From positions 1 through 51,597 of the forward strand of contig JAJRQV010000031.1 of the NCBI GenBank assembly GCA_024280035.1: DNA of 51,597 bases, in the 5' to 3' direction. The stretch is from Campylobacterales bacterium (GTDB lineage Bacteria; Campylobacterota; Campylobacteria; Campylobacterales; Sulfurimonadaceae). This document shows, piece by piece, positions 144-45,457 of this stretch (position 1 is the first letter of the stretch; the number at the start of each line of letters is the position of its first letter). Below the pieces are notes generated by a model. It was given only the letters and a program-made list of their open reading frames with translations. It was not told where the DNA came from and searched no databases. Position numbers and translations under genes: made by a program.

Positions 144-452
144 ATGGGCGGATATGGACAAAGATATACCCAGGAATTTAAAGATTCAGCAATACAGTTA
201 GGACTAAATAGTGAAGAGTCAAACCTACAGATAGCAAAAGACTTAGGAATAAGTTCTCAAACATTATATTCTTGGATTCAAAAGTACAAAGAATCACATA
301 ATTTACAAAGTACCGCTAGTAGAGGTTCTTCAAAGAACAAGGAAAGCCTAGAAGAAGAGAATCGTCGTTTACGAAAAGAGCTTTCAAGTGTGAAGAAAGA
401 CAGGGAGATATTAAAAAAGGCAGCCGCGTACTTCGCCAAAGAAACTCTATAA
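144..452 (+). CDS. IS3-family transposase OrfA
   Basis: This 102-residue protein is the DNA-binding subunit of an IS3-type transposase. Its N-terminus (about residues 8-45) has the usual HTH_Tnp_1 pattern, with YTQEFKDSAIQL followed by IAKDLGISSQTLYSWI. A charged coiled-coil or leucine-zipper stretch follows at about 65-95 (ESLEEENRRLRKELSSVKKD). An AGAGGAAGAGAC stretch just upstream of the ATG can act as ribosome binding site. Near its 3' end lies an A-AAA-AAG slippery heptamer that would shift ribosomes into the OrfB frame. The frame is intact. Family assignment is secure; the IS subgroup was not determined. Confidence 0.92.
   Translation: MGGYGQRYTQEFKDSAIQLGLNSEESNLQIAKDLGISSQTLYSWIQKYKESHNLQSTASRGSSKNKESLEEENRRLRKELSSVKKDREILKKAAAYFAKETL
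413..419 (+). promoter_or_regulatory. Programmed -1 frameshift slippery heptamer of the IS
   Basis: The sequence A-AAA-AAG is phased correctly relative to the OrfA codons (TTA AAA AAG). Slipping back one base enters the OrfB frame, which then reads RQRNSIKYAWIKEYS, a typical OrfB beginning. IS3 elements commonly make the OrfAB transposase this way. The site is seen; its use is inferred. Confidence 0.8.
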
Positions 453-1318
453 AGTACGCATGGATTAAAGAGTACAGTCAAATATTTAATATAAAGCGCA
501 TGACCGAGCTTTTAGATGTTTCTCGAAGTTGTTACTATCATTGGCTTCGAGTAGATCATCAAGAGGATCTGCAGCTCAATGAGTTAGTTAAAGATACTTT
601 TATAGGTTCTAGACAAACCTATGGAACACGCCGATTAAAGAAGTAGCTAGAAGGACTTTACGGTTTAGTACTATCAAGAAGACGTATAGGTCATATAATG
701 AAGAAGCTTGGCCTTAATACACGTAATAAACGTAGGTTTAGAGTACTAACTACAGATTCTAACCATAATTATGCCATTGCACCAAATAGGTTAAGACAGG
801 ACTTTTACGCCTCTGCTCCTGATACTATTTATGTTGGAGATATCACCTATATTCCAACACAAGAAGGATGGCTATATTTAGCCACTGTAATTGACTTATA
901 CTCAAAAAAGATTGTTGGTTGGTCTATGGATAAGAATATGACAACAACGCTGGTTAATGATGCTTTATTTATGGCTTTAAAGACAAGGTCACCAAGGGAA
1001 GGTTTAATATGGCATACAGACCGTGGCTCTCAATATGCATCTGATTCACACAGAGTGTTATTAAAAGAATATGGAATTGTTCAGAGTATGAGCCGACGTG
1101 GGAACTGTTATGACAATGCTGTGGCTGAGAGCTTCTTCCACTCTTTAAAAACAGAACTAACACATCATATAAAATTTGAAACAAGGAGCCAGGCCAATCA
1201 AGCTATATTTGAATATATAGAAGTATTTTACAATAGACAGAGGTTGCACTCTAGCAATAATTATTTATCACCTGTTGACTTTGAAAATCAACTGCTACTA
1301 AATAGTATGAGTGCTTAA
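419..1318 (+). pseudogene. IS3-family transposase OrfB, interrupted by an amber codon
   Basis: This is the catalytic half of the transposase, an rve/DDE integrase fold. The -1 frame is open from the slippery site. It reads through a HTH_21-like segment (YYHWLRVDHQEDLQLNELV) and then meets TAG at 644-646, in the context TRRLKK-stop-LEGLYG. The rest is intact to 1318. It contains the DDE residues: the Asp of YVGDITYIPT, the Asp of WHTDRGSQYAS and the Glu of NAVAESFFHSLKTEL. An internal ATG at 698 could start only a truncated protein. Because the catalytic core is otherwise complete, the stop is probably a recent lesion or a base-calling error. Confidence 0.88.
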
Positions 1319-1382
1319 GGTATTAAAAAAGTGTCTCAAATAGTGTTGACAGACCATTGAGGTCTTTGAAGTTATGATGGAA

Positions 1383-1409
1383 TGTGTCCTAATAAGTGTA
1401 GCCAGATCA
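1383..1409 (-). repeat. Right terminal inverted repeat of the IS
   Basis: This is the exact reverse complement of 77-103. Between the OrfB stop and this repeat, a short hairpin (AGACC at 1351-1355, GGTCT at 1361-1365) may stop transcription out of the element. Confidence 0.93.
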
Positions 1410-1542
1410 GAATTGTAGTTGGAATGTCCCCTAAAAAACAGTACTTTTGAATCTAAGTTTATATAAATAGTGAGTTTCAAACTAATATTTAGATGTTTTT
1501 TTATAGAATGTTCTTATATTTTAAAAATTAGAGAGAATAGGT

Positions 1543-1995
1543 ATGTCTAAAGATAAACTAATAAACCTTATACAAGATAATAAAAAGCAATATGCTTCCA
1601 TTATACAAGAACGCATTAACAACTTTAGTTACCGTAGTCAGCGTTATGGACATGTCTTTTCTCTTAGTGTTGCTTTATGTGAAAAAGGCATAGATTTACG
1701 AGGTTATTGTGATTACAAACGTCAAAGTGATGTGTTTATTGTACTTGAAAACAATTTGTGTTGTTTAATTCTTGACTGTACAGACGCAAATAGTGGTGTA
1801 AAAGCAGCCAACAATATGCTGACAAGCTTTCAAAGCCATAACTTTTCTAAGACCTTATATTCTAGTATTATTAGCTCAGATGAGTATCCTGAAAGTGAAA
1901 GAATGATAAATGAACTTTTTTATGTTTTAAAGTATGCGATTGAAAATAATATGGATAATATTGTAGTTGATGCACACTCTATGTTTAAAGACTAA
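1543..1995 (+). CDS. Hypothetical protein with a degenerate GGDEF-like fold
   Basis: This 150-residue protein has no signal peptide or membrane segment. Its spacing recalls a minimal nucleotidyl-cyclase (GGDEF-like) domain. An amphipathic N-terminal helix leads to an R-x-x-R-Y-G-H-x-F-S-L-S-V-A strand where GGDEF proteins have their first beta strand. Then come YKRQSDVFIVLENN, in the position of the GGDEF hairpin but without the signature, and a KAANNMLTSFQ helix. No catalytic or inhibitory-site motif remains, so enzymatic activity is unlikely and a sensory or scaffold role would be inferred. It is convergent with the next gene, whose stop lies five bases away. The gene looks real from length and codon use; the family call is tentative. 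Confidence 0.6.
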   Translation: MSKDKLINLIQDNKKQYASIIQERINNFSYRSQRYGHVFSLSVALCEKGIDLRGYCDYKRQSDVFIVLENNLCCLILDCTDANSGVKAANNMLTSFQSHNFSKTLYSSIISSDEYPESERMINELFYVLKYAIENNMDNIVVDAHSMFKD

Positions 1996-2000
1996 TATTC

Positions 2001-2759
2001 TTATTTCCATGCCTCTTCAAAGCTTTTTTTCTCTAATGCCATCTGTGTAGTAAGTGCCACTAAACCTGCTCTATTCATAATAAGAATCACTTTTTTCGGC
2101 CACTCTTCTTGATAATTAAAAGAGTGTGCTATGCCTCCTATTTTATGAATAAATTCTATATTAGTACTTTTTAAATATAAAACCTCTTCACCCTTGTCTT
2201 GTACTAATTTATCTAACCATAAACGGGCATTAGCAAAAACCTTATTACTTGAATCTTCTCGTATCCATCGCGTTGCAAAATCTTCTAAACACTTATAATG
2301 CGCCTGTGCTTTCTCTTTTTTATGGTACTTAAAATAAGCAAGTTTTGTATCTGTTCCTGCGTAAGGAAGAGGGCGATAATCTCGTTTTAAGCTTTTTGGA
2401 CGTTGTTTATAGTGAAGTAGCTCTTTGGAGTATTTAGATATCTCTTTTTTATCAAAAAGTATAGTTTTTGTACTTTTACACCAGGGTAAAAATAAAGAAG
2501 GAAGTTCTTTGTCTGACTTGTAGGCACCAAGGCTTAAAATATTTCCTGTAATCTGACCTACATAACCACTGTCATAACCCGATTCTAGTCCAGAAATTGC
2601 AAGCAATGCAGCGGGGGGAATATGGTGTTTTTTACTGATGAGTAAAGCACTTGGTGTGAAGTCTTGATAAAACTCTTTAACATGAGAATACTTTCTAAAA
2701 CTGTATTCACTTGCAAACATTGTGTTAATAAGTAAAAATAATATAAGTAAAAATTTCAT
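2001..2759 (-). CDS. Bax-like periplasmic glucosaminidase-domain protein
   Basis: This 252-residue protein begins with a clear signal peptide (MKFLLILFLLINTMFA). The mature part resembles the glucosaminidase family (PF01832, Bax/FlgJ C-terminal type), which cleaves glycan strands of peptidoglycan. Visible features are HIPPAALLAISGLESGY, with a candidate catalytic Glu, then QITGNILSLGAYK, and later YFKYHKKEKAQAHYKCLEDF. It probably acts in the periplasm on cell-wall turnover. It has no Shine-Dalgarno sequence. A TATACT box sits exactly six bases before the ATG, suggesting a leaderless transcript. The N-acetylglucosaminidase activity is a family inference. Confidence 0.75.
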   Translation of the reverse strand: MKFLLILFLLINTMFASEYSFRKYSHVKEFYQDFTPSALLISKKHHIPPAALLAISGLESGYDSGYVGQITGNILSLGAYKSDKELPSLFLPWCKSTKTILFDKKEISKYSKELLHYKQRPKSLKRDYRPLPYAGTDTKLAYFKYHKKEKAQAHYKCLEDFATRWIREDSSNKVFANARLWLDKLVQDKGEEVLYLKSTNIEFIHKIGGIAHSFNYQEEWPKKVILIMNRAGLVALTTQMALEKKSFEEAWK

Positions 2760-2765
2760 AACTAG

Positions 2766-2771
2766 AGTATA
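2766..2771 (-). promoter_or_regulatory. -10 box (TATACT) six bases before an ATG
   Basis: Read on the minus strand, TATACT is followed by six bases and the ATG at 2759. Initiation seven bases after the hexamer would fall on the A of ATG. No convincing -35 is present, which is common in Campylobacterota. Confidence 0.55.
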
Positions 2772-2882
2772 ACAAAATTTAAGAAACCTTGAGTAGTTAG
2801 TTAATTTTATTGTTTATATTTAAAATGTCACCAAATTGTAATTTTTACTTGTTATGATAATTAAAAATAACAGGATATTATC

Positions 2883-3392
2883 ATGAAACTCTTTTTTATT
2901 CTTCTTTTTTTTTCAATCTCGATTTTTGCAAATGAACATCGTATTTTAGTAAGTGGATTTACGAAACATGAACACTCTCATGATAAAGATGCAGAGAGGT
3001 ATAATGAGGAAAACTGGGGAGCAGGGTATGAGTTTACAAACTTTAAGAAGTATGGAGAGCTATATTTTGCAGGAAACTTTACTGTTTTAAAGGATTCTTA
3101 TTCTGATGCACAATTTACCTTGTCAGCCTCACCTAATGTCCGGTATAAAATTCACGGGGGCTTAGATGTGTCTATTGGTGTGGCTGCTTTTTTAATGTGG
3201 AAAAAAGATACTTATAAATCTGGAGTAAGTTCAGATGAGGCAAAATATGGTTTACTTCCGAGTGTAGCCCCTTTAGCTTCTTTATATTACCAAAGATTTT
3301 CTGTGAATTTAGCCTATGTTCCCACAATGAAACTGGGAAGTATTGATGTTGTAGGGTTTGGCATTGTCTATTTTGGATGGAAATTTAATTAA
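2883..3392 (+). CDS. pagP: PagP-like lipid A palmitoyltransferase
   Basis: This 169-residue protein has a signal peptide (MKLFFILLFFSISIFA) and a mature part sized like an 8-stranded outer-membrane barrel. It shares the landmarks of E. coli PagP, which moves palmitate from phospholipid to lipid A. DKDAERYNEENWGAGY matches the DKEKTDRYNERPWGGG region. KDSY matches the catalytic KDSW Asp-Ser pair. LLPSVAPLASLYY matches LLPLASVGY, and LAYVPT matches MTYIPG. A His in FTKHEHS sits where the catalytic His is expected, about ten residues before RYN. It ends with an alternating barrel strand (YFGWKFN). An AGGA Shine-Dalgarno precedes the ATG. The call rests on motif comparison from memory. Confidence 0.72.
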   Translation: MKLFFILLFFSISIFANEHRILVSGFTKHEHSHDKDAERYNEENWGAGYEFTNFKKYGELYFAGNFTVLKDSYSDAQFTLSASPNVRYKIHGGLDVSIGVAAFLMWKKDTYKSGVSSDEAKYGLLPSVAPLASLYYQRFSVNLAYVPTMKLGSIDVVGFGIVYFGWKFN

Positions 3393-3428
3393 TTATTGAT
3401 GAATAAAGTCTTTGTTATACTTTATTGG

Positions 3429-3434
3429 TATAAT
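3429..3434 (+). promoter_or_regulatory. Candidate -10 box (TATAAT) for galU
   Basis: TATAAT lies 28 bases before the galU ATG in the context TTGGTATAATTCG. It would give a leader of about 20 bases carrying the GGGG ribosome binding site. Confidence 0.5.
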
Positions 3435-3462
3435 TCGTTAAATATTAATTTTGGGGTTTATA

Positions 3463-4311
3463 ATGATTAAAAAATGTCTATTTCCAGCTGCGGGTTATGG
3501 TACTCGTTTTCTTCCTGCGACTAAGGCAATGCCAAAAGAGATGCTTCCTGTTTTAACACGTCCTTTGATTGAGTATGGGGTTGAAGAAGCGGTTCAAGCA
3601 GGTATGAATACTATGGCTATTGTTACGGGTCGTGGAAAACGTTCTATTGAAGATCATTTTGATATCTCGTATGAACTTGAGCATCAGATTAAAGGGACAT
3701 CTAAAGAGCCTCTTTTAAATAGTATTCGTTCTCTTATTAATCAATGTACATTCTCATATACACGTCAAGTTGAAATGAAAGGCTTAGGGCATGCTATTTT
3801 AACAGGTGAAACACTTATTGGAAATGAGCCTTTTGCTGTTGTTCTTGCAGATGACTTATGTGATGGAAATTCGCATGGTGGTGTTCTTTCTCAGATGGTT
3901 AAATTGTATGAAAAATATCAATGTTGTATTGTTGCTATTGAAGAAGTACCTAAAGAAGAGACCAATAAGTATGGTGTAATAGCAGGTAATGAGATAGACA
4001 AAGATGTTTTTATGGTAACAGACATGGTAGAAAAACCAGATCCTAAAGATGCCCCATCAAACCTTGCAATTATTGGTCGTTATATCTTAACACCAGATAT
4101 TTTTGATGTTATCCGTGAAACAAAACCGGGTAAGGGTGGAGAGATTCAAATTACGGATGCTCTTCTTACTCAGGCTAAAAAAGGCATGGTTGTTGCCTAT
4201 AAATTTAAGGGTGAAAGATTTGATTGTGGCTCTGTTGATGGTTTTGTAAAAGCAACAAACTATTTTTACGATAAGTCTAAGCAAACTTCAAAAGCCGAAA
4301 AGAAGAAGTAA
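3463..4311 (+). CDS. galU: UTP--glucose-1-phosphate uridylyltransferase
   Basis: This 282-residue enzyme makes UDP-glucose from UTP and glucose 1-phosphate for surface polysaccharide and LPS synthesis. The nucleotidyltransferase signature GYGTRFLPATKAMPKEML is at about residues 10-27. VLADDLCDG carries the metal-binding Asp, VTDMVEKP and GGEIQITDAL are typical GalU segments, and GERFDCGS lies near the end. The ATG at 3463 is preferred over an in-frame TTG at 3451 because a GGGG ribosome binding site lies just before it and the protein then begins MIKKCLFPAAG. The last 71 bases of the gene are repeated downstream. A bidirectional terminator separates it from the B12 operon. Confidence 0.95.
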   Translation: MIKKCLFPAAGYGTRFLPATKAMPKEMLPVLTRPLIEYGVEEAVQAGMNTMAIVTGRGKRSIEDHFDISYELEHQIKGTSKEPLLNSIRSLINQCTFSYTRQVEMKGLGHAILTGETLIGNEPFAVVLADDLCDGNSHGGVLSQMVKLYEKYQCCIVAIEEVPKEETNKYGVIAGNEIDKDVFMVTDMVEKPDPKDAPSNLAIIGRYILTPDIFDVIRETKPGKGGEIQITDALLTQAKKGMVVAYKFKGERFDCGSVDGFVKATNYFYDKSKQTSKAEKKK

Positions 4312-4430
4312 TTTTCTAGAAACATCGCTTTGCGACCGCCACGGCTTGTTTTGTAAAAGCAACAAACTATTTTTACGATAAGTCTAAGCAAACTTCAAAA
4401 GCCGAAAAGAAGAAGTAATTTTCTAGAAAC
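4241..4430 (+). repeat. Partial tandem duplication of the galU 3' end
   Basis: Bases 4241-4323 recur without mismatch at 4348-4430, giving an 83-bp repeat with a 107-bp period. The first copy includes the last 23 codons and the stop of galU; the second is non-coding. The 24-bp spacer (4324-4347) is part of a REP-like element. After the second copy, TACTTTTACGATAA at 4431-4444 resembles a third, mutated fragment. Confidence 0.95.
4319..4352 (-). repeat. REP-like dispersed repeat, copy C
   Basis: On the minus strand this reads AAAACAAGCCGTGGCGGT, then CGC-AAA-GCG, then ATGTTTC. The first arm is identical to the two copies at 30196-30271. The internal short palindrome differs in sequence but keeps its symmetry (TCGC-AAA-GCGA). 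Confidence 0.75.
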
Positions 4431-4453
4431 TACTTTTACGATAAAACAATACA

Positions 4454-4480
4454 AATAAAGAGTTCTTATAGCTCTTTATT
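4454..4480. terminator. Bidirectional hairpin between galU and btuC
   Basis: AATAAAGAG (4454-4462) pairs perfectly with CTCTTTATT (4472-4480) around a 9-base loop. The A-rich and T-rich flanks allow it to stop both galU and the minus-strand B12 operon, whose last gene ends at 4516. Confidence 0.75.
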
Positions 4481-4515
4481 CTTCCTCCCTGCAATACCTT
4501 TCTTGAGGTCTGAGT

Positions 4516-9815: not shown

Positions 9816-9822
9816 TGTTTTC

Positions 9823-11766: not shown

Positions 11767-11783
11767 TTTGTTTTTCCTTTGAA

Positions 11784-12137: not shown

Positions 12138-12162
12138 TTAATTTCCCCCAATTAATAAGCGA

Positions 12163-12264: not shown

Positions 12265-12621
12265 ATGATATTTGGTGATTTATTCTCATTTTCAAGAGTG
12301 AAGTGGCAAGAAGAGATTGTCCCTTTTCCGACTGAACTTAAAAATATACAGTTAATAAAAATTTTACATATGCAAAGTAATAAATGTGTAGTCTTCTCTA
12401 AACAAGATGTAGAAAAATTTTTAGCTTTTATGAAAACAGGGTATTGCAATAAAATAATGAAAGGCATGACCCGTTACCAAATTAAGATAGAACATTAAGA
12501 TGGAAATTCTGATTATTATATTGATGGTGAGTCCGTTCGTCCAAAAAAATCTGATCTTGTCCAAGCTGCATTTACACCTAAAAATAGAGGATTTGAGGTC
12601 TTTTTACACTCTTTCTTTTAG
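12265..12621 (+). pseudogene. Small hypothetical gene interrupted by TAA
   Basis: An ORF starting with ATG at 12265 runs 77 codons to TAA at 12496-12498, then stays open in the same frame for 40 more codons to TAG at 12619. The first part reads like a compact globular protein (MIFGDLFSFSRVKWQEEIVPF, VFSKQDVEKFLAFMKTG). The second part continues with DGNSDYYIDGES and AAFTPKNRGFEVFLH. Continuity of frame and composition suggests one 118-residue protein split by a nonsense codon. The function is not recognised. Its end overlaps the convergent Cys-rich gene by four bases. Confidence 0.5.
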
Positions 12622-13821: not shown

Positions 13822-16800
13822 TTAAACATTATAATAACTTGCATTGGGATGGTACACTACTAATGCTGAGGTAGATTGTTCAGGATGAATTTGAAAAGTC
13901 TCACTCAACTCAATCCCAAAATCTTCAGGTTTAAGTAAATCAAACAGAGGTCTGTTCAGTTCTAAGTCAGGGCAAGCCGCGTAACCAAAAGAGTAACGTG
14001 CTCCTTGATACTTATTCATTCTAACATCAGAAAGTACAGGTTTTTCATTGTCTGAAATAGTTAAATCCATTCGTATCTGCTTATGTACAATTTCAGCAAG
14101 GGCTTCGGCAAGTTCAACACCTAAGCCATGAACCATATAATACTCAGTATATTCACCCTTATCATACAAGGTTCTTTCATAATCACTAATTTTAGAACCT
14201 GCAGATACACAGGTCATTGCTAATACATCATGTCTATCTGAGTGAAAAAAATCAGACAGTGCACGGTGAGGTTTTTTACTTTGACGTGGAAAATCAAACT
14301 TATGTTCAGCCCTTCCAATAACATCTATTAAAGGCTCTTTATTCACTTCAGATTCAGAATTATACCCTTCGCTTTCATCAAAAACTAAGAGTGTATTATC
14401 ATCTGAACGAACAGGAAAATAACCATAAATAGCAGTAGGTTCAAAAAGTTTTTCATCAATAAATAGCTTTTTAATACGCTCATAAGCCGGCCACACCTTC
14501 TCTTCAAGTTGTTTTTCATAAGCTTCTTTGCTTAAACCCTTAGAGTTATATCCCCATCTCTGTTTAAACAGCATTTTATGGTTAATCCACTCAAAAGCAA
14601 GTTCAATCGGAAAGTCTTTGCCTACTTCCATAACTCTTCGACCCCAAAAAGGAGGGGTAGGAATACGAACCTCCCTGTTTGGCATTTTTAGCTCTTTAAA
14701 AGGAGGAATAATAATCTCTTTCTTCTCTTTTTTCTCTTTTTCTTCACCTGCTTTTCCATGTAAGTTAGTATCTAACTCTCCTCCTGCTTCAATACGGCTC
14801 ATAGCAGTTACACCATCAAAGGCATCCTTACAGTAAAAGATAGGTCCATCATAAAAAGGTCGACAAAAATCATCAATAAAAGTACGTGTAAGTGCGGCAC
14901 CTCCAAGAAGAACAGGCAGAGTTATTCCTGCTTTTTGCATAGTTTCTAAGTTGTCTTTCATGACTTGTGTTGATTTTACTAAAAGCCCTGACATTCCAAT
15001 TGCGGTCACATCAGACTTTTTTAACTCTTCAAGATAGGTTTCAAGCTCAACTTTAATACCAAGATTAATGACATTAAAACCATTGTTTGTTAGAATAATA
15101 TCAACAAGGTTCTTACCTACATCATGCACATCTCCTTTTACTGTTCCTAGTGCAAGTGTTGTTACTGTGGTTTTTTCTGTTTTAGGAAGGTATGGATTAA
15201 GAAAATCAACAGTTTTTTTCATAGTTTCAGCCGATTGAAGTACAAAAGGTAGTTGCATCTGACCCGAACCAAAAAGTTCACCAACAACCTTCATTGCATC
15301 AATTAAAATCTCATTAACGATTTTTTCAGGTCGAATCTTATGACGTGCCTCTTCAACAAGAGGAATCATTCTATCTTTGTCTCCATCCATAAGCAGTTGT
15401 TTGATTTTTTCTTCATCAGACATAGCGTTATAGGCTTCATCAACAGCCTCATTATCAACCGCTTCTTTAGTTGAAAAGTATTCTATGAAATCAAACAGAG
15501 CTTGACCCTTCTCTTTTTTATCAAAGATAAGGTTATTACAAATCTCCAGATCTTCATCACTAAATTTATTAAGAGGAATAATATGTTTCACATTAATAAT
15601 AACCGAGGTTAAGCCTGCTTTAATACAGTGGTCTAAAAAGACAGAGTTAAGATAAGGACGTGCATCTTTATCTAAACCAAAAGAGATATTAGACAGACCA
15701 AGTGTTGTGCCTACTTCGGGATGACGAGTACGCAGCTCTCTAATGGCATCAATGGTTTGAACACCTGCATCACGGTACTCTTCATCTCCTGAACCAAGGG
15801 TAAAGGTAAGTACATCAAAAACTAAGTCTTCAGGGTTAATACCATGAACCTGCGTTGCCCGTTCATAAATACGTTCGGCGACTTCCATTTTAGTTTTTAA
15901 GGTCTTTGCCATGCCGACTTCATCAATGGTAAGACACACAAGAGCCGCCCCGTATTTTTTGGCTAAGGCACAAACAACATCAAACTTTTCAATTCCATCT
16001 TCAAGATTTACTGAGTTAATAATAGGTTTTCCACCTATCATTTTAAGAGCCTCTTCAAGAGCAGCAGTTTGTGTTGAATCTGGCATCAAGGGAAGCGGGA
16101 TTTTTTGGGCATATAGTGCCATAACCTTATTCATATCTAAGGTTTCATCACGTCCTGCAAACCCAACAGAAACATCTAAAACATGAGCTCCTGCACGAAC
16201 TTGTTGTTGACCAACAGAAAGGGTGCCTTCATAATTCTCAGCTAAAAGAAGTTCCCTAAAGGCTTTTGAACCGGTTGCATTTGAACGCTCTCCAATAAGA
16301 AGTGGAGCAGGGTCTTGCATTAGGGGTACGGTATTAAAAAGTGAAGCTAAAGAGGTGGGTTGTGAGCCACAAGCGGGTTTAGGTTGACGTGAGTGTACCT
16401 TACCTGACATTTTTTTAATATGCTCAGGGGTTGTTCCACAACACCCCCCTAAAAAGGAGACGCCATCATAGTCTAAAAAACTATTTTGTTGTTCAGCAAA
16501 CTCATCAGGACCCATTGGGTAAAATGAAACGCCTCCTCTATTTTGAGGCAGACCTGCATTAGCATGAACAGAGATAGGTTTAGCCCAAACCTCTGCAAGG
16601 GTTTTTATGTGTTTACCGTACTGCTCAGGTCCTGTTCCACAGTTAAAACCAAGACTTAAAATATCAAAAGGTTCTAAGATAGCCGCAATAGTCTGCGCAT
16701 CTGTTCCAATAAGCATTGTTCCTGCAAGTTCAATAGTTGCAGAGACCATGATAGGCAGTTCTGTTTTACGCTCTTTATTGGCAGCTTCACAGGCATGTAG

Positions 16801-17319
16801 AGCAGCTTTAATTTGAAGTGGATCTTGACAGGTTTCAAGCAAGAAGATGTCTGTTCCACCATCTATAAGTGCTAGAGCACACTCGGTATAACCCTTAAGC
16901 ATGTCATCATAATGCATATGCCCTAAGGAAGGGAGTTTGGTACCGGGTCCAATAGAGCCTAAGACAAAACGTGGAAAATCAGGTGTTGAAAACTTATCAC
17001 AAGATCTTTTTACAACTTCAGCTCCTGCCTTAGCTAATTCATAGGCTCTATTTCCAATTTGGTACTCATCTAAAACCCAATCAAAAGCACCAAAGGTATT
17101 GGTAGTAATTAGATCAGCCCCAGCCTCAAGGTAAGCTTCAAAAATCTCTTCTAAGAGTTCAGGTGCTGTGACATTAAGAAGTTCATTACAACCCTCAATT
17201 CCTTCCCATTGTGCATCTGTGATTTGATCACTTCTGTCTTGTAATTACGTACCCATAGCCCCATCGATAATGAGGGGACGTTTTTTAATTGTGTCTAAAA
17301 TATATTGTTTAGTTGACAT
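13822..17319 (-). pseudogene. metH: Cobalamin-dependent methionine synthase with nonsense codon 25
   Basis: The frame spans 1165 codons, normal for MetH, which methylates homocysteine with methyl-tetrahydrofolate through B12. It starts MSTKQYILDTIKKRPLIIDG at 17319, then hits TAA at 17247-17245 within GAMGT-stop-LQDRS. All domains follow intact. The homocysteine domain has zinc ligands in GFNCGTG and GGCCGTTPEH. The pterin domain begins near ERSNATGSKAF. The B12 domain has KGDVHDVGKN with the axial His. The C-terminal AdoMet activation domain has RYSFGYAACPD. An internal ATG (16917) would lose 134 residues of the homocysteine barrel. Many relatives have Gln or Met at the stop position, so a single-base change or sequence error is likely. 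Confidence 0.93.
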
Positions 17320-20210: not shown

Positions 20211-22073
20211 TTAAGAATCTTTTTGTTTTTGATAGTAGGCTTCAAAAGACTCTTTTAAAAGAGGTTTTGAATAAAAATATCCCTGAAGAAAGTGGCAATC
20301 GCTTTGGGCTAAGAATTGATAATGTTCATCTGTCTCAACCCCTTCAGCAACGACAGTAAGGTCAAAGGTTTTAGCCATAGCTAAGATAATAAGAATCATC
20401 TGTTTATTATTTTCACTAAGGTCATAAATAAAAGATTGGTCTATTTTTAATTCATGCAGAGGCATCTGTTGCAGATAACTTAAAGAAGAGTATCCTGTTC
20501 CAAAATCATCTAAAGAGAAACGTATACCAAGGTTATTGTGAATTCCATTCATAACAGAAATGACCTTATTAATATCTTCGGCTAAAAATGTTTCTGTCAT
20601 CTCAAAAATAATCTTTTTTTGTAAATCTTTAGTTAAATACTGTTGACATAATCTTCCTATATCAAGAGTAAAAGAGTAATGAAAAAATTGTCGCATACTA
20701 ATTTTGATAGAGAATTGTTCTAAGATAAGCCCCTTATCATTCCAAGCCTTGAAGGTCTTAAATGCCTCTTCTAAAATATAATACCCTAGTTTGATGATAA
20801 TCCCTGTCTGTTCTGCAATAGGAATAAAAATATCAGGAGGAACTGAACCGAGCTCTTTACTGTTCCACCGTACTAAAACCTCACATCCAATAAGTTCTTG
20901 TTTAAGATTAACCTGAGGTTGAAAGTTAAGATATATCTCATTATTTGCTAAGGCAGTATGGAGGTTGCGTTCTATTTTTAAATGGCTTTCTACACGTTGT
21001 GAAAGCTCATCATTAAAGAGAATTACCCCATCTCTTCCCTTGTTTTTTACTTCATACATAGCGATATCAGCTTCTTTAATAAAGGTGTTTACATTTAAAC
21101 ACTCAGGAGAGAGTAGGCTTACACCTATACTTGCACTAAGAAAAATTTGATGTTCATTAATGGTATAGGTCTTTTTTAAGTTTTTTAGGAGTTCTTCAGA
21201 GATTGAAACAGCCTTGTGTAAACCCTCTTGAGAATTTTGAAAGTTTTGACCTAAAAAGACAAATTCATCTCCCTCAAGTCGGGCTATAATGCACTCCTAT
21301 TTTACGGTGTCTTTGAGTCGTAAAGAGACCTCTTGTAAAATTTTATCTCCAATATCATGACCTAAAGAGTCATTAACGGTTTTAAAGTGGTCAAGGTCAA
21401 TAAGAAGTAAGAAAGAGTAATTTTTTAATTTTTCTAACTCATTAGTCTTTTTTTGTAAGGCATCAAGAAAGGCATGTCTATTATAAATGTCAGTTAATTG
21501 GTCATGGGTAGCTTGATAATGTGTTTTTTGAAAAAGTTTATCTGAACTGTTGGCGGAGTAGAAGAGCACACCTGTAAAAATGAGTGAAAATAAAGAGAGT
21601 ATATAAGCATAAAATTCTCCTATTAAAGTGAAATAGATACTCAGAGGTAACATTAGTATAAGGATAATGGGTCTCAGTATATACTTATCAGAAAAAAGTA
21701 GGGTTGTAGCAACAACAGCGGTCCCTAACTCAGTAAAAATAGCAATATAATGCATTTTACTTTCAGTTTCATTCGCATATATGAGAAAAACAACAGTCCA
21801 TAAGCCAAAGATAATAAAATAAAAGAATGAGAGCTTTTTATGCCAAAGCTTAAGTTCTGTACTTCCCATACTTTTGTAATCAAAATTTATATACAGCTGT
21901 CTTCCCCAAATGGAGGTCAGCAGAACAAGAGCATACCAAAATAGAGCAGGTTCAACAATATTATTGAGCCAACCTAAAAAGATATATCCTAAGCCAGGAA
22001 TAAGAGATAAGCCTATCATGACTAGAATCTATTTATGTAAGGTAATATAAACATACTTTTGATTAACAAACAT
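20211..22073 (-). pseudogene. Membrane GGDEF-EAL protein with two in-frame amber codons
   Basis: Read as one frame of 620 codons, this is a six- to seven-span membrane sensor followed by GGDEF and EAL domains. The true start is probably ATG 22073 (MFVNQKYVYITLHK), with an AAAGG box nine bases upstream. TAG at 22031-22029 then falls before ILVMIGLSLIPG, and a second TAG at 21299-21297 falls between RLKDTVK and ECIIARL. The GGDEF signature is altered to EGDEF. In the EAL domain EVLVRW, FEMTET, LDDFGTG, LKIDQSF and AEGVE are present, but the usual Asn of the N-x-S motif is Lys (FSIKIS). Each fragment would lack a complete catalytic unit except the EAL part, which has an internal ATG at 21059. 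Confidence 0.88.
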
Positions 22074-22621: not shown

Positions 22622-23626
22622 ATGATAGACATTAAAAATAAAATTTTTCATATTCTTTGTGTTGATGATACTGCCACTAATTTACAGTTAGTAAAAAATA
22701 TTTTAGATAAAAAGGGGTATAAGGTATCTCTTGTTGAAAGCGGGGCAGAAGCCTTAGCCTATCTTAAAAAGAATCCTCGAATTGATTTGATCTTACTTGA
22801 TGTTATGATGCCAGGAATGGATGGGTATGAAGTTTGTCGTATATTAAAAAAAGGTTTGGCTAGAATTCGAAAAATTCCTGTGATTTTTCTTACTGCTATT
22901 AGTGATATTGATGGGGTGAGTAAGGGTTTTGAAGTAGGGGGAGTTGACTATTTAAGTAAACCTTTTCGCCCTGTAGAACTTCTAGTGCGTATTAATACGC
23001 ACCTAAAACTCTCTTTTTTTGAAGAACAAAGACTCGAACGAACAGAACTTGAACTTGTTTATATGATGAGTACCTTAGCAGACAAGCATTGTGAAGAGAC
23101 CTCTGGACATGTTCAAAGAGTAGCTGAGTATTCGGCACTTATAGCAAGGCTGTTAGGTTATGGTCATGAGCAGGCCGAGCTTATTAAAAGAGCTTCGGCA
23201 ATGCATGATATAGGAAAGGTAACAACACCTGATCATATTTTGCATAAACCCAGTAAACATACCGAATCTGAATCTATTATTATGAAAGATCATGCACAAG
23301 CGGGATATGAAATTTTAAATAAATCAAAACTTCCTTTAATGCAAGTTGCTGCTATTATTGCTCATCAGCATCATGAAAAGTGGGATGGAACAGGTTATCC
23401 TCGTGCATTAAAAGGTAAAGAGATTCATATTATTGGAAGAATTGTTGCTTTTGCAGATGTTTTAGATGCACTTTCTTAATCAAGAAAATATAAGGATGGA
23501 TGGAATTTAGATGATATCTTTGCCTTTTTAAAATCTCAAAAAGCTAAACATTTTGACCATCGCATAACCGATCTTTTTATGGATAATTTTGGGCTTTTTT
23601 TAGAGATAAAAGAGAAATATGACTAA
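22622..23626 (+). pseudogene. Response regulator with HD-GYP phosphodiesterase domain, TAA near the C-terminus
   Basis: This is a RpfG-type regulator of 334 codons. The receiver domain (about 10-125) has the acidic pair in CVDDTATN, the phospho-Asp in LLDVMMPG, FLTAIS and LSKPFR. The HD-GYP domain (about 145-330) has ASAMHDIGKV, KDHAQAGYEIL, IIAHQHHEKWDGTGYP and GRIVAFADVLDALS. TAA at 23477-23479 follows DALS, where relatives continue into the last helices. The same frame goes on with SRKYKDGWNLDDIFAF to TAA at 23624. All metal ligands lie before the stop, so a shortened protein might retain some function. The start has no clear ribosome binding site. Confidence 0.86.
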
Positions 23627-23629
23627 GCT

Positions 23630-23731
23630 TTATCTGCCAAATACTCTTTCTGTATAATAAATGGCTATAGCCGTTAAGGTAAATAAAACGCCTCCATAAA
23701 TTGCAAATAACATTGTATTTGAAAATTCCAT
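23630..23731 (-). CDS. 33-residue single-span membrane protein
   Basis: A strong AAGGAG box seven bases upstream of ATG 23731 introduces a peptide that starts MEFSNTMLFAIYGGVLF. A continuous hydrophobic helix (about residues 7-25) is followed by a short polar tail (YYTERVFGR). Size and layout fit the class of small membrane proteins that attach to larger complexes. No partner gene is adjacent: msrA is 170 bases away on the other strand. The gene is supported by its ribosome binding site and membrane pattern only. Confidence 0.6.
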   Translation of the reverse strand: MEFSNTMLFAIYGGVLFTLTAIAIYYTERVFGR

Positions 23732-30393: not shown

Positions 30394-30399
30394 CTTCAT

Positions 30400-32697: not shown

Positions 32698-32703
32698 ACA
32701 GTA

Positions 32704-33165
32704 ATGATTTTTCTCAAATATCAACAGCCTAAAGCAGAATACGTTCAGTTTCAACGTCTTATTTTCGGTCTTATTGTTCTGGCTTCTGTTTTTACAGAAG
32801 ATATACTCTATATCTATATATTTTTGGTGCTTAGTCTTATTAGTTTTATTACGACCATAAATTACTCGCCTACAACACTTCTGTTCAAATTTTTAAATTT
32901 TATAATGCAACAGCCTCTTTTTACAACAGCACCTCAGTATGCGCACTCGTATGTTGTTAACCAATTGGCAGAAGTTTTTGAAGACTTTATGCGTGTTTTT
33001 GTAGGTATATTAATAATTTATCTCTACTCTTTTTCTCCTTTAAGTGCATGGATGACAGCATCTGTAATGAGCATGACAATGTTAATATCAAGCTTTTTTG
33101 GTTTTTGTTTTTCTTCTTTAATTTATATCGCGTATATACATGGCGTCAAGAAGTTTACAAAGTGA
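32704..33165 (+). CDS. Integral membrane protein, DUF4395-like
   Basis: This 153-residue protein has four hydrophobic segments (about 18-35, 38-55, 97-115 and 118-145) with a loop in the middle (FIMQQPLFTTAPQYAHSYVV). The arrangement recalls DUF4395 membrane proteins, but the match is from memory and weak. Its TGA overlaps the GTG start of the GGDEF-EAL gene (GTGA), so the two are translationally coupled and probably work together. Confidence 0.65.
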   Translation: MIFLKYQQPKAEYVQFQRLIFGLIVLASVFTEDILYIYIFLVLSLISFITTINYSPTTLLFKFLNFIMQQPLFTTAPQYAHSYVVNQLAEVFEDFMRVFVGILIIYLYSFSPLSAWMTASVMSMTMLISSFFGFCFSSLIYIAYIHGVKKFTK

Positions 33166-34843
33166 GTGAACTTAAAAATATAGAACTTGACCTCTTTACT
33201 CAACAAGAGGGAAAGATTAATAAAAACTGTGTCTTAGCTAGAAATGGGTTTACACCTTATGAGAGATGTAATTATTGTGAGTTGAATGTTCAGTCTTGTC
33301 AGGGAATGCATCTTAACTTTTTCACCTTTCTTATCGGTTTTTCTGTTCTTATGTTTCTGTTTATTACGGATCCTCTTTTAATACGTCTAAATATTATTTT
33401 GGTGATTGGGCTCTTTTTTGCCTTAGGCTATGAGGTGACGGTGCATACAGACTCACTAGCACGATCAGATTTTATGAATAAAAACCTAAATGATAAACTT
33501 CATGTGCATTCAACAAATTTAGAAGGTGAGGTGAAAAAACGTACAAAAGAGCTTCAACATCTTGCTATACATGACACGCTTACGGGGCTGTATAATCGGT
33601 ATGAATTTGAAAAACGTCTTATTTTTGCACTAAAATACTCTTCAAATGCTTCAGCTCAAAGTATTATGTGTTATTTAGATTTAGACCAATTTAAAATTGT
33701 TAATGATACTTCTGGGCATATGGCAGGAGATGAACTCTTAAAGCAGATATCATTTATTATGCAACAGCATGTAGATGAAAAAGATATTCTTGCTCGTCTG
33801 GGAGGAGATGAGTTTGGTATCTTATTTATAGGTAATACTATTAAAGAGGCTAAGAAAAAAGCAGAAGCCTTGTTAAAGGCAATCAAAGAGTACCGTTTTG
33901 CTTGGGAAAATAAGGTTTTTGTTGTGGGTGCTAGTATAGGAATGGTTCCTATAACTAGAGAGTGCTGCTCTTTAGTGGATATAATTTCTGCGGCAGATGA
34001 GGCATGCTATCAGGCTAAAGAGAAGGGACGTAACTGTATATTTGTAACAACAAATGATGATAAACAACTTCAAGAAAAACGTTCAGAAATGCAATGGTTA
34101 GGACGTTTGACCCAGGCTCTTGAAGAAGAAAAATTTGTTTTATATGTACAGCCTATCGTCTCGTTAAAACACAAAAGTAAGGCATTTAAACATTATGAAG
34201 TACTTATTCGACTAAAAGAGGGAAATAAAATTATCTCACCTATGGCATTTATTCCTGCAGCTGAGCGTTATGGTATGATGCAAGGTATTGACAGATGGGT
34301 GATTGAGTCTGTTTTTAAAAATTATGTTAATCTGCAAATTTCTAATGATCAACTTTACCGTTTTAGTATCAATTTATCAGGTGTTTCACTTAATGATAGT
34401 GGCTTGACTGCTTATATTGAGGAGCTATTTAATCGTTACCATGTTCCTCATAATACTATCTGTTTTGAGGTAACCGAGACGGCTGCAGTAGCAAACTTGA
34501 GTGTTGCTTTAAAATTTATTAATCGTATGCATAGTTTGGGGTGTCGGTTTTCTTTGGATGATTTTGGTTCAGGTTTATCCTCTTTTGCTACCTTCAAAAC
34601 CTCCCTGTAGATTACTTAAAAATTGATGGTGCCTTTGTTATTGACATTCATACCAACAGAATTAATAAAGCTATGGTAAAATCCATTAATGAAATCTCTC
34701 ATACTATGGGGATGAAAACTATTTGTGAATATGTTGAAAACATTGAAATTGAAAATGTTTTAAAAGAGTTGGGTGTTGATTATGCCCAAGGTTATCTACA
34801 TGCTAAACCCGAACCTATAGAAAAACTAATTAAAGGAGCATAA
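33162..34843 (+). pseudogene. Membrane GGDEF-EAL protein with a one-base deletion
   Basis: From GTG 33162 (overlapping the upstream TGA) to TAA 34841-34843 this encodes about 560 residues. The N-terminus holds a Cys cluster (YERCNYCELNVQSC), followed by two membrane spans, a coiled coil, an intact GGDEF domain (ARLGGDEFGILF) and an EAL domain (EVLIRL, FSINLSG, CFEVTETA, SLDDFGSG). At 34587-34591 GCTACC appears where GCTTACC would keep the frame; one T is missing. The +1 frame then continues correctly with YLQNLPVDYLKIDGAFV, CEYVEN and YAQGYLHAKP. As written, translation ends at 34610 without the last EAL ligands. The ATG at 33048 is not the start. Confidence 0.9.
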
Positions 34844-36524: not shown

Positions 36525-36715
36525 TATAATTTCATCAACTTATTTTGATTTAAAGATAACTATAATACCATAAAGCAACATTTTTAAAAAAGATAAAAAC
36601 TTCAGAAGAGAAAATAGAAAAACTCAAGCTCTTTTGGAAGTATAAGCGAGTAGGGTATAATTAATTTTATAAGTTACGATACACTACTCTTACTATATTA
36701 TTTAAGGAATTAATA

Positions 36716-37327: not shown

Positions 37328-37328
37328 G

Positions 37329-38708
37329 ATAGAACTTTCATATCTTTCTCTTCTTCCCCCTCTTTTTGCCATTATTATGGCAGTATTTACTAAAAAAGTT
37401 TTTATCTCTCTTTTATCTGGGATTGTATTAGGTCAATTAATTTTATATGGTGCAGATTTTTTCACCTTTATGCCCACCGTTGATCTTTTACTGGCACAGT
37501 TTAGTGAAGCATGGAAAATAAAAACAATATTTTTTGTGATTATGGTGGGTTCTATTATTCAGCTTATTACCAGTTCTGGAGGAATAGAAGCCTTTATCTC
37601 CTTTGTCAGTAAAAAACGCATTAATTCAAAACGAAGTACACTGTTTATGGGTTATTTAATTGGAATTTTAATTTTTTTAGAGAGTTCAATTACGGCACTA
37701 GTTGTTGGTGCATTAACTAAACCTCTTGCAAAAAAATACAAAATTTCTAAGGCAAAACTTGCCTATTTATGTGACTGTACCTCTTCACCTGTATGCTCCT
37801 TGTTCCCTTTTAATGGTTGGGGTGCTCTTCTTTTAGGTTTGATTGCAACACAGATTGATTATGGTATTATTCAAGGAGAAGCTCTTGCTTTATTAATATA
37901 CTCAATTCCTTTGAATTTTTATGCTATTACTACGATGCTCGTACTTTTTATGGTGATTTTAACGGGTAAAGACTTTGGGCCTATGAAAACTTCTGAGTTT
38001 GAGGCTTCACAAGAGAGTATAAGCTGTGATACTCAGGTGTTGAATACTCAAGGTAGTATTAAAGCGATGTTTTACCCTATTTCTGTCATGCTTTTATCTG
38101 TACCTATCTCTCTTTATATTACGGGTAAGGGTAATATGCTTGCAGGTTCAGGTTCATCAGCAATTTTTTATTCGGTACTAATAACTCTTGTTTTTATTGC
38201 TGTGTATTATAGTTTTAAAAAAATCATGGATTTAGAAACTTATTTTAAAGAGTTAAAGCAGGGTGCAGGAGATATGGTAGGTATCGGTTTTATACTTCTG
38301 CTTGCCTTCTCTTTGGGTGATGTTACAGTAGTTTTAAAAACAGGTCCTTATTGAGCCTCTTTAGTCGAAGGTAATATATCAGCAGTTTATATTGCTGCTA
38401 TTGTTTTTTTAGTCTCTTCTGTAATGGCATTTTCTACGGGAACCTCATGGGGGACTTTTTCAATAATGATGCCTATGGCCTTACCCATGGCAGCAGTTTT
38501 AGATGCTAATATTGCACTTGTTATTGCAGCTGTAATTTCAGGTGGAGTCTTTGGTGATCACTGTTCGCCTATTTCAGATACAACTATTATTTCTGCTATG
38601 GCAGCAGATTGTGACACTATTGAGCATGTAAGAACTCAACTTCCGTATGCACTTTTAAGTGGTTTTATCTCTTTAATACTTTTTATTATTTTTGGATATT
38701 TCCTTTAA
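37329..38708 (+). pseudogene. nhaC: NhaC-type Na+/H+ antiporter with TGA and no canonical start
   Basis: This frame of about 460 codons encodes ten or more membrane spans of the NhaC family. Landmarks are CDCTSSPVCSLFPFNGWGALLLG, GFILLLAFSLGDV, AFSTGTSWGTFSIMMPMALP and GGVFGDHCSPISDTTIISA. TGA at 38352-38354 interrupts it after LKTGPY. The N-terminal sequence expected for the family (IELSYLSLLPPLFAII) is encoded upstream of ATG 37377 but starts with ATA at 37329. A GGAG box stands eight bases before that ATA, exactly where an ATG start would be served. So the gene carries two apparent lesions, an ATG-to-ATA start and a nonsense codon. Confidence 0.85.
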
Positions 38709-42900: not shown

Positions 42901-43104
42901 AGCAAGTTCTTGTTCTTGCACAATTTCACGTTCTATCTCCTTTGGGCTCGCTCCATTCCATGTGGTGTAAACAGAGATTTGGGGTTGAATAACATTAGGT
43001 GTAAGTTGTTGAGGTAAACGTTCAAGTGCTAAAAAACCAAAAATTAGAATCAATAAGACCCCGACCATAATAACAACAGGTTTAAGAAGAGAATAACGAA
43101 CCAT
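39952..43104 (-). CDS. RND efflux pump inner-membrane transporter
   Basis: This 1050-residue transporter has the standard two-fold RND layout: membrane spans near residues 12, 335-540 and 860-1025, with two large periplasmic loops. Its start and first span (KPVVIMVGVLLILIFGFLAL) and ISFSVGMLVDSAIVVLENI (proton-relay Asp in TM4) are typical of the AcrB/HAE superfamily. The end is APGPGSEFYRGLG followed by the last two spans. It overlaps tolC and the membrane-fusion gene, one base with the latter. It is intact, but its fusion partner is broken in this sequence, so the pump may not assemble. Substrate unknown. Confidence 0.93.
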   Translation of the reverse strand: MVRYSLLKPVVIMVGVLLILIFGFLALERLPQQLTPNVIQPQISVYTTWNGASPKEIEREIVQEQELALKNTPNLESYESKAKDNRGSISLSFKLGTNINKALLDVSNRLNEVDDYPENVEKPVIKATGETASPVIWTMLQTLENNPNDINNYLTYMQNEIQEHYERIDGVAELFVRSGVRDEMQVILDVQKMAAYGLSMDYIITIIQRNNIDISAGSMDLGRRSYRIRTTSQYRNPKDIKDLILVSNGKQEVHLGEIAEVKFGHSKKQSISFVDGINGIIIGVKPDTDANIVKLTDDVEAMVNKLNEKQLKAIGLKIRWLHDKRDYIKGSIELVQQNILIGGILAIIVLLIFLRTISSTAVVALAIPISIISTFIILEFFGRSLNTISLAGISFSVGMLVDSAIVVLENIDRHKKMGKKFFDAALDGTQEVWGALIASALTTIAVFLPIIFLENEAGQLFKDIAIAVTAAVSLSLFVSISVIPMLWNQLMKLSKHQSHQFKEKAPYTVRLGQAINNKIMEGVSWTLKSTSHQLITVALLVAFSASSVYLLFPKMEYLPQGNRNLIFNIMIPPPGFSYKENKLIGEKIWEEIKPYTQGEVNGLPQIKLVFFVAHGDFILFGVLAKDSRRIKELKPMLKKISNSFPGIFGVSKQAGVFERGLGRGRTIDLDITGESIEEIAHVGGELFKALAKEVPTAQVRPEPSIELLFPEISIIPNKERLHALGLDSRSLGIIADVLMDGRKISEFKVDGKKKVDLILMANQDNISSPEDLYHSLVSTQNGELVTFDSLADLEHTSDISVIRHLNGKRTITLQVSPPKGMSVQETIEVLKQKILPQIKNPNIKMELTGTADKLIQTVQSMKWNLILAVIITYLLMAALFGNFIYPLIIMVTLPLAAAGGFIGLWTVNTFIAKQALDILTMLGFIILIGIVVNNAILIVHQSLNLVRNHKMGHKEAVLEATHTRLRPIFMSTLTSVFGMLPLILAPGPGSEFYRGLGSVITGGLAFSTLFTLFVIPALLLFAIKMEKTYLNEGKNEKKRLNEKNKEREEI

Positions 43105-44104
43105 TATTTAACTTCCTGATTTGGGAGAAGACGTTCGTTTCCTTTAGTTACGACTTTATCACCTACTTTTAATTCAGCTGCGTAAATAGCTGCCTTATCT
43201 CCTTGAAAACTTAAAACCTTAACCGTAATCATTTTTGCCTTGTGATTTTTTATAATAAAAACTACATCTTTACCAAAACGTTTAATAACACCATCTCTAG
43301 AGATAAGAAGAACATCTTTAGTGGAACTTTTTTCTAAGCTTAGAGTAACTTGCATACCATCAAAAAACTTATCCTTACTTTTTAAAAGACGAAGTCTAAG
43401 GGGAAAGGTTCGTGTTTTCTCATTTCCGCTTAAAAGAGCACCTAGAATCTTTGCCTTATAGTTTTTATTATTGATATAAACATTAATTACTTTTCCTTGA
43501 TGCACCTTTGTAATGTAAGCTGAAGGGAGATGAATTGTAATATCAATTTTATAAGGATTGATTAAAAGAGCCACGAGACTTCCTTGATTTAACCATTCAC
43601 CAATTTCTATCTCTCTTTGACTAATATAACCACTAAAGGGGGCGCGTAAGGTTTTCTGTTTTTTCTCTATATCTAAGGCTAAAAGAGAAGATTCTAATGA
43701 GATTAATCTCTGTTCTAATCCCATTTTTTGAAAATAGAACTCATCATATTTTTGTTGAGAAACACTCTGTTTCTTAAGTAAAATCTCATAACGTTTGAAA
43801 TTAAGTTTGGCTTTTTCAAGTGAAAATTTTGCCTCTTTTATAGACGCTTCAATGGCTTTGATGTTAGCATCTAAAACTCTTGAATCAATTTCTAAAAGTA
43901 TCTGCCCCTTTTTACAAAGTCTGTTTCATCAAAATATATCTTTTTAATTAGACCAGAACTCTCTGCCGCTAATTCAGACTTCTGATTAAAAGAGAGGTTA
44001 CCATTAAAAGTTTGGCTTTGAGAAAGGGAGCCTCTTGTAAGTTCTTGGGTAATAACAGAAGCAAATAGGGGAAGGGTGAAAATTAAGATAAATAGGTATC
44101 TCAT
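43104..44104 (-). pseudogene. RND membrane-fusion (HlyD-type) protein with a homopolymer frameshift
   Basis: The gene starts ATG 44104 with a signal peptide (MRYLFILIFTLPLFA) and the first lipoyl half (AAESSGLIKKIYFDETDFVK). At 43909-43913 the coding strand has five A where six would keep the frame (GTA AAA AAG GGG CAG). The next frame resumes correctly as GQILLEIDSRVLDANIKAI. It continues through the coiled coil, the second lipoyl half (LRAPFSGYISQREIEIGEWL) and the barrel to 43104. Restoring one A gives 333 residues, normal for the family. As written, only a 70-residue peptide is made. Its start overlaps the marR stop (ATGA). Confidence 0.9.
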
Positions 44105-44535
44105 AATGTCTCCAAGCAGGGTGTTTTTCTAAGTGTTTCTAAAATACTAAGAAATATTTTTAAATCATGTTTCGAGAATTGCCCACTAAGTTTTTGAATA
44201 ACATGTTCTGTCGTAGGTAATATCTCTTCCATGATTCTTGCACCTTTAGTACTCCATGAGATGAGATAGACACGTCTGTCATCTTCTTTTGGTGTACGTA
44301 TAAGCATCTCATTTTTCACTAAGGTGTCAATCATTCGCGTAATTGTTGTTTTATCTTTGAAGGTGATTTCTGAAAGTTGAGTGGGGCTGATTTCAGGGTT
44401 CTCTTCTACTGATTTCATAATAACATACTGTTCTGATGTCAGCTTATAAGATTTTAAAAAGTTGTTGAAACGGTTTTTCATGGCATTTGCAGTCATATTG
44501 ACTTGAAAACCAAGTGAATCTTCGAGTTTATGCAT
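44101..44535 (-). CDS. MarR-family transcriptional regulator
   Basis: This winged-helix regulator of about 144 residues starts at ATG 44535 (MHKLEDSLGFQVN) with a GAGG box; the in-frame TTG at 44568 is less likely. MarR features are YKLTSEQYVIMKSVEENPEISPTQLSE, DKTTITRMIDTLVKNEMLIR as the recognition helix, and the wing DDRRVYLISWSTKG. It heads the efflux operon marR-mfp-rnd-tolC and overlaps the fusion-protein gene. It probably represses this operon and itself; a palindrome covers the predicted -10 upstream. Confidence 0.9.
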   Translation of the reverse strand: MHKLEDSLGFQVNMTANAMKNRFNNFLKSYKLTSEQYVIMKSVEENPEISPTQLSEITFKDKTTITRMIDTLVKNEMLIRTPKEDDRRVYLISWSTKGARIMEEILPTTEHVIQKLSGQFSKHDLKIFLSILETLRKTPCLETL

Positions 44536-44556
44536 AAAGACCTCGGGGTAATTTAG

Positions 44557-44583
44557 TTGTAGATACAATTATATGTACTACAA
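44557..44583 (-). promoter_or_regulatory. Candidate MarR operator over the efflux promoter
   Basis: TTGTAG and CTACAA arms (6 bp each, perfect) enclose 15 bases that contain TATAAT on the minus strand (44573-44568). A regulator bound here would cover the -10 box of its own operon. The palindrome is seen; its function is inferred. Confidence 0.55.
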
Positions 44584-44634
44584 GCAAATTATCTTCTTAA
44601 ATTTATTTACTAATGCGGATTTTTGAAAAAGTTA

Positions 44635-44663
44635 TTGACAATCGTTATCTACTTATATATACT
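44635..44663 (+). promoter_or_regulatory. Consensus sigma70 promoter immediately before modE
   Basis: TTGACA (44635-44640) and TATACT (44658-44663) are separated by the ideal 17 bases. The modE ATG at 44670 follows after six bases, so the mRNA should begin at or next to the start codon. It is the strongest of the five such arrangements in the window. Confidence 0.75.
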
Positions 44664-44669
44664 TCGTGC

Positions 44670-45457
44670 ATGAATAAAACACCCTTCTTATTAAGTTCTG
44701 AATTAATATTAAAAAAAAATGAAGATGATTTTTTAAGCCTAAAAAAATTGTTTTATTAGAAAATGTACGTGATTACGGATCTATGGCTAAGGCAGCTAAG
44801 GTCTCAAGTATTAGTTATAAAACAGCATGGAACTGGATTGATAAGATGAATGTTTTATCCCCTTCTTCTTTAGTAGAGAAGGTGAGTGGGGGCAAAGATG
44901 GTGGGGGAACCATTATTACGAGTTATGCGATAGAGCTTATTGGTATTTATCATGAGGTAGAGGCCTTACATCAAAAACATCTTGAAGGTCTACAAGCATC
45001 TTTCTCTTGTCTAGAAGACGATATTACTCAAAAAACTTTTAGTTTTTCTCGACTTGCTGCAGAGATATGTGAAATTAATATTAATGACAATAATGTAGAA
45101 TATACACTTCAACTTAAGGGCGGTTTGGGTGTAATAGCCTATTCTAATAGTATATTTAAAAAGGTTAATAAATTAGAGGTGGGGTCTAATGTTTTTGTTT
45201 TGGTTGAGTCTGATGCTGTTTCTGTTAGTAAGATAGAAAAAGTTGATATCAGTAGTCGAAACCGGCTTCAAACAAAAATCTCAGATATTCTAATTAAGGA
45301 CAAAGATGTTCTTTTAACCTTGATGTTAAGTGAAGATCAATACTTAACATCAAGAATAACACTAAAAAGTTTTCAAAACTTACAATTAGAAATTGGAAAT
45401 GATGTCATGGCAATGTTTAAAGCCTATAATGTGACTTTATTAAAAAACGGGGAATAG
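44670..45457 (+). pseudogene. modE: ModE-type molybdate-responsive regulator with a homopolymer frameshift
   Basis: The gene starts at ATG 44670 (MNKTPFLLSSELILKKNEDD) and encodes a LysR-like winged helix, then a region like TOBE/Mop molybdate-binding domains (about 130-262). At 44741-44747 there are seven A where eight would keep the frame. Adding one gives SLKKIVLLENVRDYGSMAKA and joins AAKVSSISYKTAWNWIDKMN, the classic ModE recognition helix, for 262 residues in total. As written, the first frame ends at TAG 44757. An internal ATG (44783) would lose the first helix of the DNA-binding domain. ModE normally represses molybdate uptake genes when molybdate is bound. Confidence 0.85.

Follow-up and report, generated by a model that had tools for sequence, protein, structure and literature searches.

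Interrupted genes of the window

The window analysed here is a 51,597-base stretch, contig C34 of the draft genome of a Campylobacterales bacterium (G000; 2.51 Mb in 107 contigs, with a completeness rating of 100%), whose relatives are Sulfurimonas-like and whose sister genome is referred to as G001. A first-pass annotation reported seven nonsense codons and three one-base deletions in the window, which break genes that it described as otherwise full length with intact motifs. All seven stop codons and all three frameshifts are present in the sequence, at or a few bases from the positions reported. Interruptions of this kind belong to the G000 sequence as a whole and are not peculiar to the window. 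The features concerned are the following.

144-452, orfA of an IS3-type element
419..1318, forward strand, IS3-type transposase OrfB (Pfam rve and HTH_21), TAG at 644-646
12265..12597, forward strand, open reading frame (ORF) without a homologue among the references used; 12265-12498 ends in TAA at 12496-12498, and the frame is open to at least 12597
13822..17319, reverse strand, metH, cobalamin-dependent methionine synthase with complete Pfam domains, TAA at 17245-17247 (codon 25)
20211..22070, reverse strand, GGDEF-EAL gene with an ambiguous start position, TAG at 21297-21299 and at 22029-22031
22622..23635, forward strand, response regulator-HD-GYP gene (Pfam Response_reg and HD_5), TAA at 23477-23479
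33048..34834, forward strand, GGDEF-EAL gene, one-base deletion near 34589
37377..38708, forward strand, Na+/H+ antiporter family gene, TGA at 38352-38354, a site spanned by Pfam PF03553
43104..44104, reverse strand, HlyD-type membrane fusion protein gene adjoining one for an AcrB-type transporter, with a single base lost from an A run near 43909-43913
44670..45457, forward strand, TOBE-domain regulator, presumably ModE-like, one-base deletion in the A run 44741-44747

Homologues support nine of the ten lesions, and to that extent the description of broken full-length genes stands. The exception is 12496: the ORF at 12265 has no Pfam match and no homologue among the references used, and its lesion is therefore unproven. 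The transposase, which we take to be of the IS3 type, has a copy in G001 that is 95% identical and reads through position 644 with an Arg. At 17245, the residue in metH is Gln in 29 of 29 relatives, whereas Ser occupies 23477 in six of six matches and Leu or Ile occupies 38352 in eight of eight. The stop at 22029 was doubted initially because an ATG follows at 22019; the G001 orthologue, however, has Gln at this position and aligns across it, upstream of the ATG, which supports the lesion. The description of intact motifs does not apply to this gene (20211..22070), as its GGDEF motif reads EGDEF. Near 34589, the Pfam EAL profile is matched from 3 to 162 in one frame and from 163 to 236 in the other. 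The alignment of the regulator interrupted at 44741 begins at residue 33 of the orthologue, the N-terminus being encoded in the other frame.

A 65-base stretch adjoining the IS3-type element (76-140) has a 97% identical copy on contig C17 (L176 4363-4427), perhaps the end of another IS3-type copy. An 83-base sequence is also repeated exactly within the window, in direct orientation and after a short spacer (4241-4323 and 4348-4430).

Lesion load in G000 and its relatives

A sample of 629 kb of G000 (25%, window included) was compared by blastx with filtered reference proteins of relatives, which covered 302 kb. An initial comparison with every ORF as reference was abandoned because antisense ORFs swamped the signal, and a codon-usage scan for coding that continues past stops was too low in specificity. 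Six of the 29 stop rows in G000 were removed: L098:680 lies upstream of the likely start, L102:19258, L103:3709 and L112:7945 are weak and probably gene junctions, L105:503 is the consequence of a frameshift, and window position 38706 is a normal terminator. From 13 frameshift rows, the removal of two duplicates and of the weak row L111 left ten events, to which 44741 was added by hand. One G000 contig of 2,958 bases (L113) consists of N throughout.

This left 23 supported internal stops and 11 frameshifts in the sample. By hand, each of the 11 is readable as a deletion, of two bases in rpoB and of a single base in the other ten; seven lie in A or T runs, of which 3 to 7 bases remain, and four lie outside runs. 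A strict filter, which demands at least 60% identity in both 25-residue flanks, retained 17 of the 29 stop rows in G000 (including the removed L098:680) and none of ten in the reciprocal analysis of G001 over 364 kb. The ten G001 rows were judged to be alignment ends, weak stretches or positions beside N, and among its six frameshift rows one (at the start of L136, in the same gene as the end of L135) is possibly real. In an earlier control, 396 kb of seven relatives including G001 were examined; the 192 kb covered yielded nine stop rows and no frameshifts, and the stops were judged to be shadow ORFs (six), positions just upstream of a gene (two) and an alignment edge (one). Of the two sister genomes, only G000 has internal stops that pass the strict filter.

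Such stops are rare, although G000 is not their sole carrier: in the ribosomal columns, one of 29 relatives carries a stop, as G000 does, and among 60 relatives metH is full length without an inner stop in 56, carries a TAG in one and is in pieces in three. In another member of the genus, a single contig (G005:C56) carries metH and a signalling gene, both in pieces with TGA codons.

It had been proposed that a genome-wide rate near zero would make the window exceptional. The rate elsewhere is instead high, with 25 lesions in 267.6 kb against 8 in the 34.4 kb covered in the window, counted by one method; the window is about 2.5 times denser, a figure biased by its having been picked for its lesions.

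Interruption of essential genes

Stops were found in secY, rplP, lysS, cysS, pyrD, hemB, pdxJ and a PBP1A-type gene, and frameshifts in valS and rpoB, the names being those given by NCBIfam to the intact G001 orthologues; metH was named by Pfam. Other genes of the sample are presumably ddl, MltA-like, nrd-like and clp-like, to judge by their motifs. The copies of three genes in G000 were counted. The single match of rplP covers all 141 residues at 93% identity and is interrupted by one TAA, and metH and rplN, the latter from the rplP operon, likewise have a single match each.

The rate of stops shows no steady fall with rising conservation, and the lesions ignore the importance of the gene. 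Four stops occur in 20.7k codons at 85% identity or more, 12 in 17.4k at 75-85% and four in 19.0k below 75%. These counts leave out five edge stops and include, among the 20, two doubtful ones, both at 75-85% identity. Identity upstream and downstream of the stop is 0.95 and 0.91 in SecY, 0.83 and 0.82 in LysS, and 0.94 and 0.92 in RplP. The two values are alike in many of the 20 cases but not in all, the measure being identity rather than the ratio of nonsynonymous to synonymous rates (dN/dS).

Residues at the stops and the genetic code

The residue of the relatives is Glu at 11 of the 23 stop sites (one of them mixed Glu/Gln/His) and Gln at five; Ser, Leu/Ile, Arg, Ile, Ala, Lys and a variable site occur once each. 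The suggestion that the stops derive from Gln by C-to-T changes therefore holds for a minority. The majority are one G-to-T or C-to-T step away from the codon of the relatives. Lys, whose codons are the most frequent one-step source of TAA under the codon usage of G000, is found at one of the 23 sites. UGA accounts for one stop in 23. Of the 11 Glu codons, 9 are preceded by a T when counted by hand, against 48% (P of about 0.03), a sequence context that is suggestive only.

Reassignment of a stop codon, which the first-pass annotation had set aside, does not appear to be supported by the sequence. TAA, TAG and TGA each occur both as lesions and as normal terminators, and no codon is consistently read as sense. 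Stop usage is normal in G000 (TAA 63.5%, TAG 22.8%, TGA 13.6% in 359 long ORFs) when compared with G001 (66.4, 17.0 and 16.6%, respectively, in 500 ORFs), and the gene for release factor 1 (RF1), prfA, is intact. No suppressor tRNA was found among the 13 tRNAs read in the 25% sample. A whole-genome search for the anticodon-arm pattern with UUA or CUA gave one hit, as did the reversed control; the test is weak, as the Gln control gave two hits against two in reverse. A nonsense suppressor would, moreover, leave the frameshifts unrescued, so that reassignment does not explain them.

Origin of the interruptions

We consider that the lesions are mostly flaws of the draft consensus, a smaller part marking true pseudogenes of dispensable function, and assign this explanation a probability of about 0.55. 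The lesions lie on many contigs, strike essential genes and are absent from G001 under the strict filter; such breaks, if real, would kill the cell or halt its growth, which argues that the lesions are not real in living cells. As to the manner in which the flaws arose, we infer that substitutions and small deletions may have entered the consensus from damaged or scarce template molecules, or that a short-read assembler may have picked minor variants or those of dead cells. In this reading the flaws are spread over the sampled genome regardless of gene function. Two pairs of contig ends share an exact overlap of 141 bases, and a third pair, with a tandem repeat at that place, overlaps by 131; such ends are suggestive of de Bruijn assembly from short reads at k=141. 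The ends of contigs C65 and C101 have 362 bases of rpoB in common at 99% identity, which implies some variation or error within the assembly. A repeat of about 130 bases, 85-87% identical, is also scattered over several contigs of G000 (L176 10932-11066, L182 17329-17463, L187 6154-6289, L193 8401-8536).

Several observations weigh against consensus flaws. The foremost is the missense level, since random errors that yield stops should yield roughly tenfold more missense changes. We compared 5,054 columns of ribosomal proteins, metH, PEPCK, alaS, rpoB, glyA and lysS, of which 2,759 are invariant in the relatives; in the latter, private missense changes number 20 in G000, which also has three stops there, and about 29 to 32 in G001. 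In a pairwise comparison of 54,659 codons, G/C-to-A/T changes number 3,256 towards G000 and 3,311 towards G001, and the radical ones 148 and 154. The signature classes are similarly distributed (Asp-to-Tyr 3/2, Val-to-Phe 4/11 and Gly-to-Val 6/4 in G000 and G001, respectively, against Glu-to-stop 7/0), although some of the 39 classes listed lean to G000, chiefly Gly-to-Ser (23/11) and Gly-to-Arg (6/1). When fitted to the stops at Glu and Gln, a simulation with forward minus reverse G/C-to-A/T missense as the statistic expects an excess of +172 for all changes and +51 for radical ones. The observed values are -85 (SD, standard deviation, of about 83) and -6 (SD of about 18), a shortfall of about 3 SD in each, the two not being independent; at 0.6 of the fitted rate it is about 2 SD. 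The absence of a missense excess argues that the lesions are not simple random errors. Furthermore, in 11 housekeeping genes the stop stands at Glu or Gln in 11 of 11, where a G/C-to-A/T model gives 61% (0.61^11, or about 0.005); this set was chosen post hoc and comprises the eight stopped essential genes, metH and the nrd-like and clp-like genes, with the insertion sequence (Arg) and HD-GYP (Ser) outside it. Finally, assembly at k=141 would usually imply fair depth. A mild radical excess points the opposite way to the missense deficit: in 10,163 polarised columns with six stops, radical changes number 6 in G000 against 3 for G/C-to-A/T and 35 against 16 for all kinds, with all G/C-to-A/T missense level at 125 and 121.

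The missense shortfall bears differently on the other explanations. The more plausible of them, though clearly less probable than flaws in most genes, is a mixture of causes, with true pseudogenes in dispensable genes (the insertion sequence transposase, GGDEF-EAL, HD-GYP, antiporter and efflux adaptor genes) and errors in the essential ones. In the window, dispensable genes of signalling and transport do carry the majority of the lesions, one such gene having two stops and a degenerate motif, and the deficit shrinks to the lower of the values given above if fewer of the stops are errors. Such a mixture, however, requires two simultaneous causes, and the kinds of lesion are alike in the window and in essential genes. 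A natural tolerance, in which near-cognate or altered decoding inserts Gln or Glu at real UAA and UAG codons and lets Glu and Gln codons become stops at no cost while missense is still selected against, would account for the missing missense excess, for the predominance of Glu and Gln and the near absence of UGA at the stops, and for conservation past the stop that about equals that before it in many genes. We regard it as unlikely. It leaves over the 11 frameshifts, the two-base rpoB deletion included; stop usage and RF1 are unremarkable, and the suppressor pattern is at control level with none among the sampled tRNAs; and in the relatives that cover the sites checked in depth, the residue is invariably sense (Glu in 29 of 29 for rplP and 23 of 23 for lysS, Gln in 29 of 29 for metH). 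The more specific proposal of a tolerated ambiguity of stop codons at low frequency, in which UAA and UAG inside genes are routinely translated, most probably as Gln or Glu and sufficiently for essential genes such as secY, rplP and lysS to contain them, with RF1 and stop usage unchanged, appears slightly less likely still.

Recent genome erosion, also proposed in the first-pass annotation, or hypermutation of a living lineage such as a new symbiont or a mutator, is in our view very improbable. Deletions mostly in A or T runs, and stops biased towards G/C-to-A/T changes, are reminiscent of spontaneous mutation, but essential genes are struck along with dispensable ones rather than spared, rplP and metH being found once each, which argues strongly against it, and no overall missense excess accompanies the lesions. 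Sequence error had rightly been listed among the possibilities. We give slightly less credence still to an alteration made to the stored sequence once assembled, whether through the handling of files or deliberately as a test: it would explain disabling changes in excess without an overall excess of missense, yet Lys at one and Glu or Gln at 16 of the 23 stops are unlike random placement, and G001 is clean under the strict filter. Phase variation through A runs was rejected, as it accounts for none of the nonsense codons.

Comparison with known systems

Draft and metagenome assemblies can contain frameshifts and in-frame stops of artefactual origin. The lesions of G000 resemble them in being scattered, blind to function, limited to one assembly and present in essential genes, and differ in that the expected missense excess is missing and that the indels all read as deletions. 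Pseudogene-rich symbionts such as Sodalis have many disabling lesions as well, but in G000 essential genes are also broken. Transcriptional slippage at A runs rescues frameshifts in symbionts, and the seven deletions of G000 in A or T runs would be comparable; the runs are short, however, four deletions lie outside them, and the nonsense codons are left unexplained. In-frame stops in functional genes have been described by Belinky et al. (2021; PMC7918605), who accept only stops common to at least two species. As with stops of that type, the G000 stops lie inside genes, many of which are about as conserved downstream of the stop as upstream; by contrast, the three G000 stops checked in depth (rplP, metH and lysS) occur in no relative covering the site, and frameshifts accompany them. 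A literature search on error-laden metagenome-assembled genomes, and on premature stops with pseudogenes in Sulfurimonas, found nothing relevant.

If the lesions are artefacts, a genome rated as 100% complete would hold about 280 false gene breaks, as extrapolated from the sample, and claims of pseudogenes or auxotrophy drawn from G000 would be wrong. If, on the other hand, the missense deficit is real, it would point to a natural tolerance of stop codons in essential bacterial genes.

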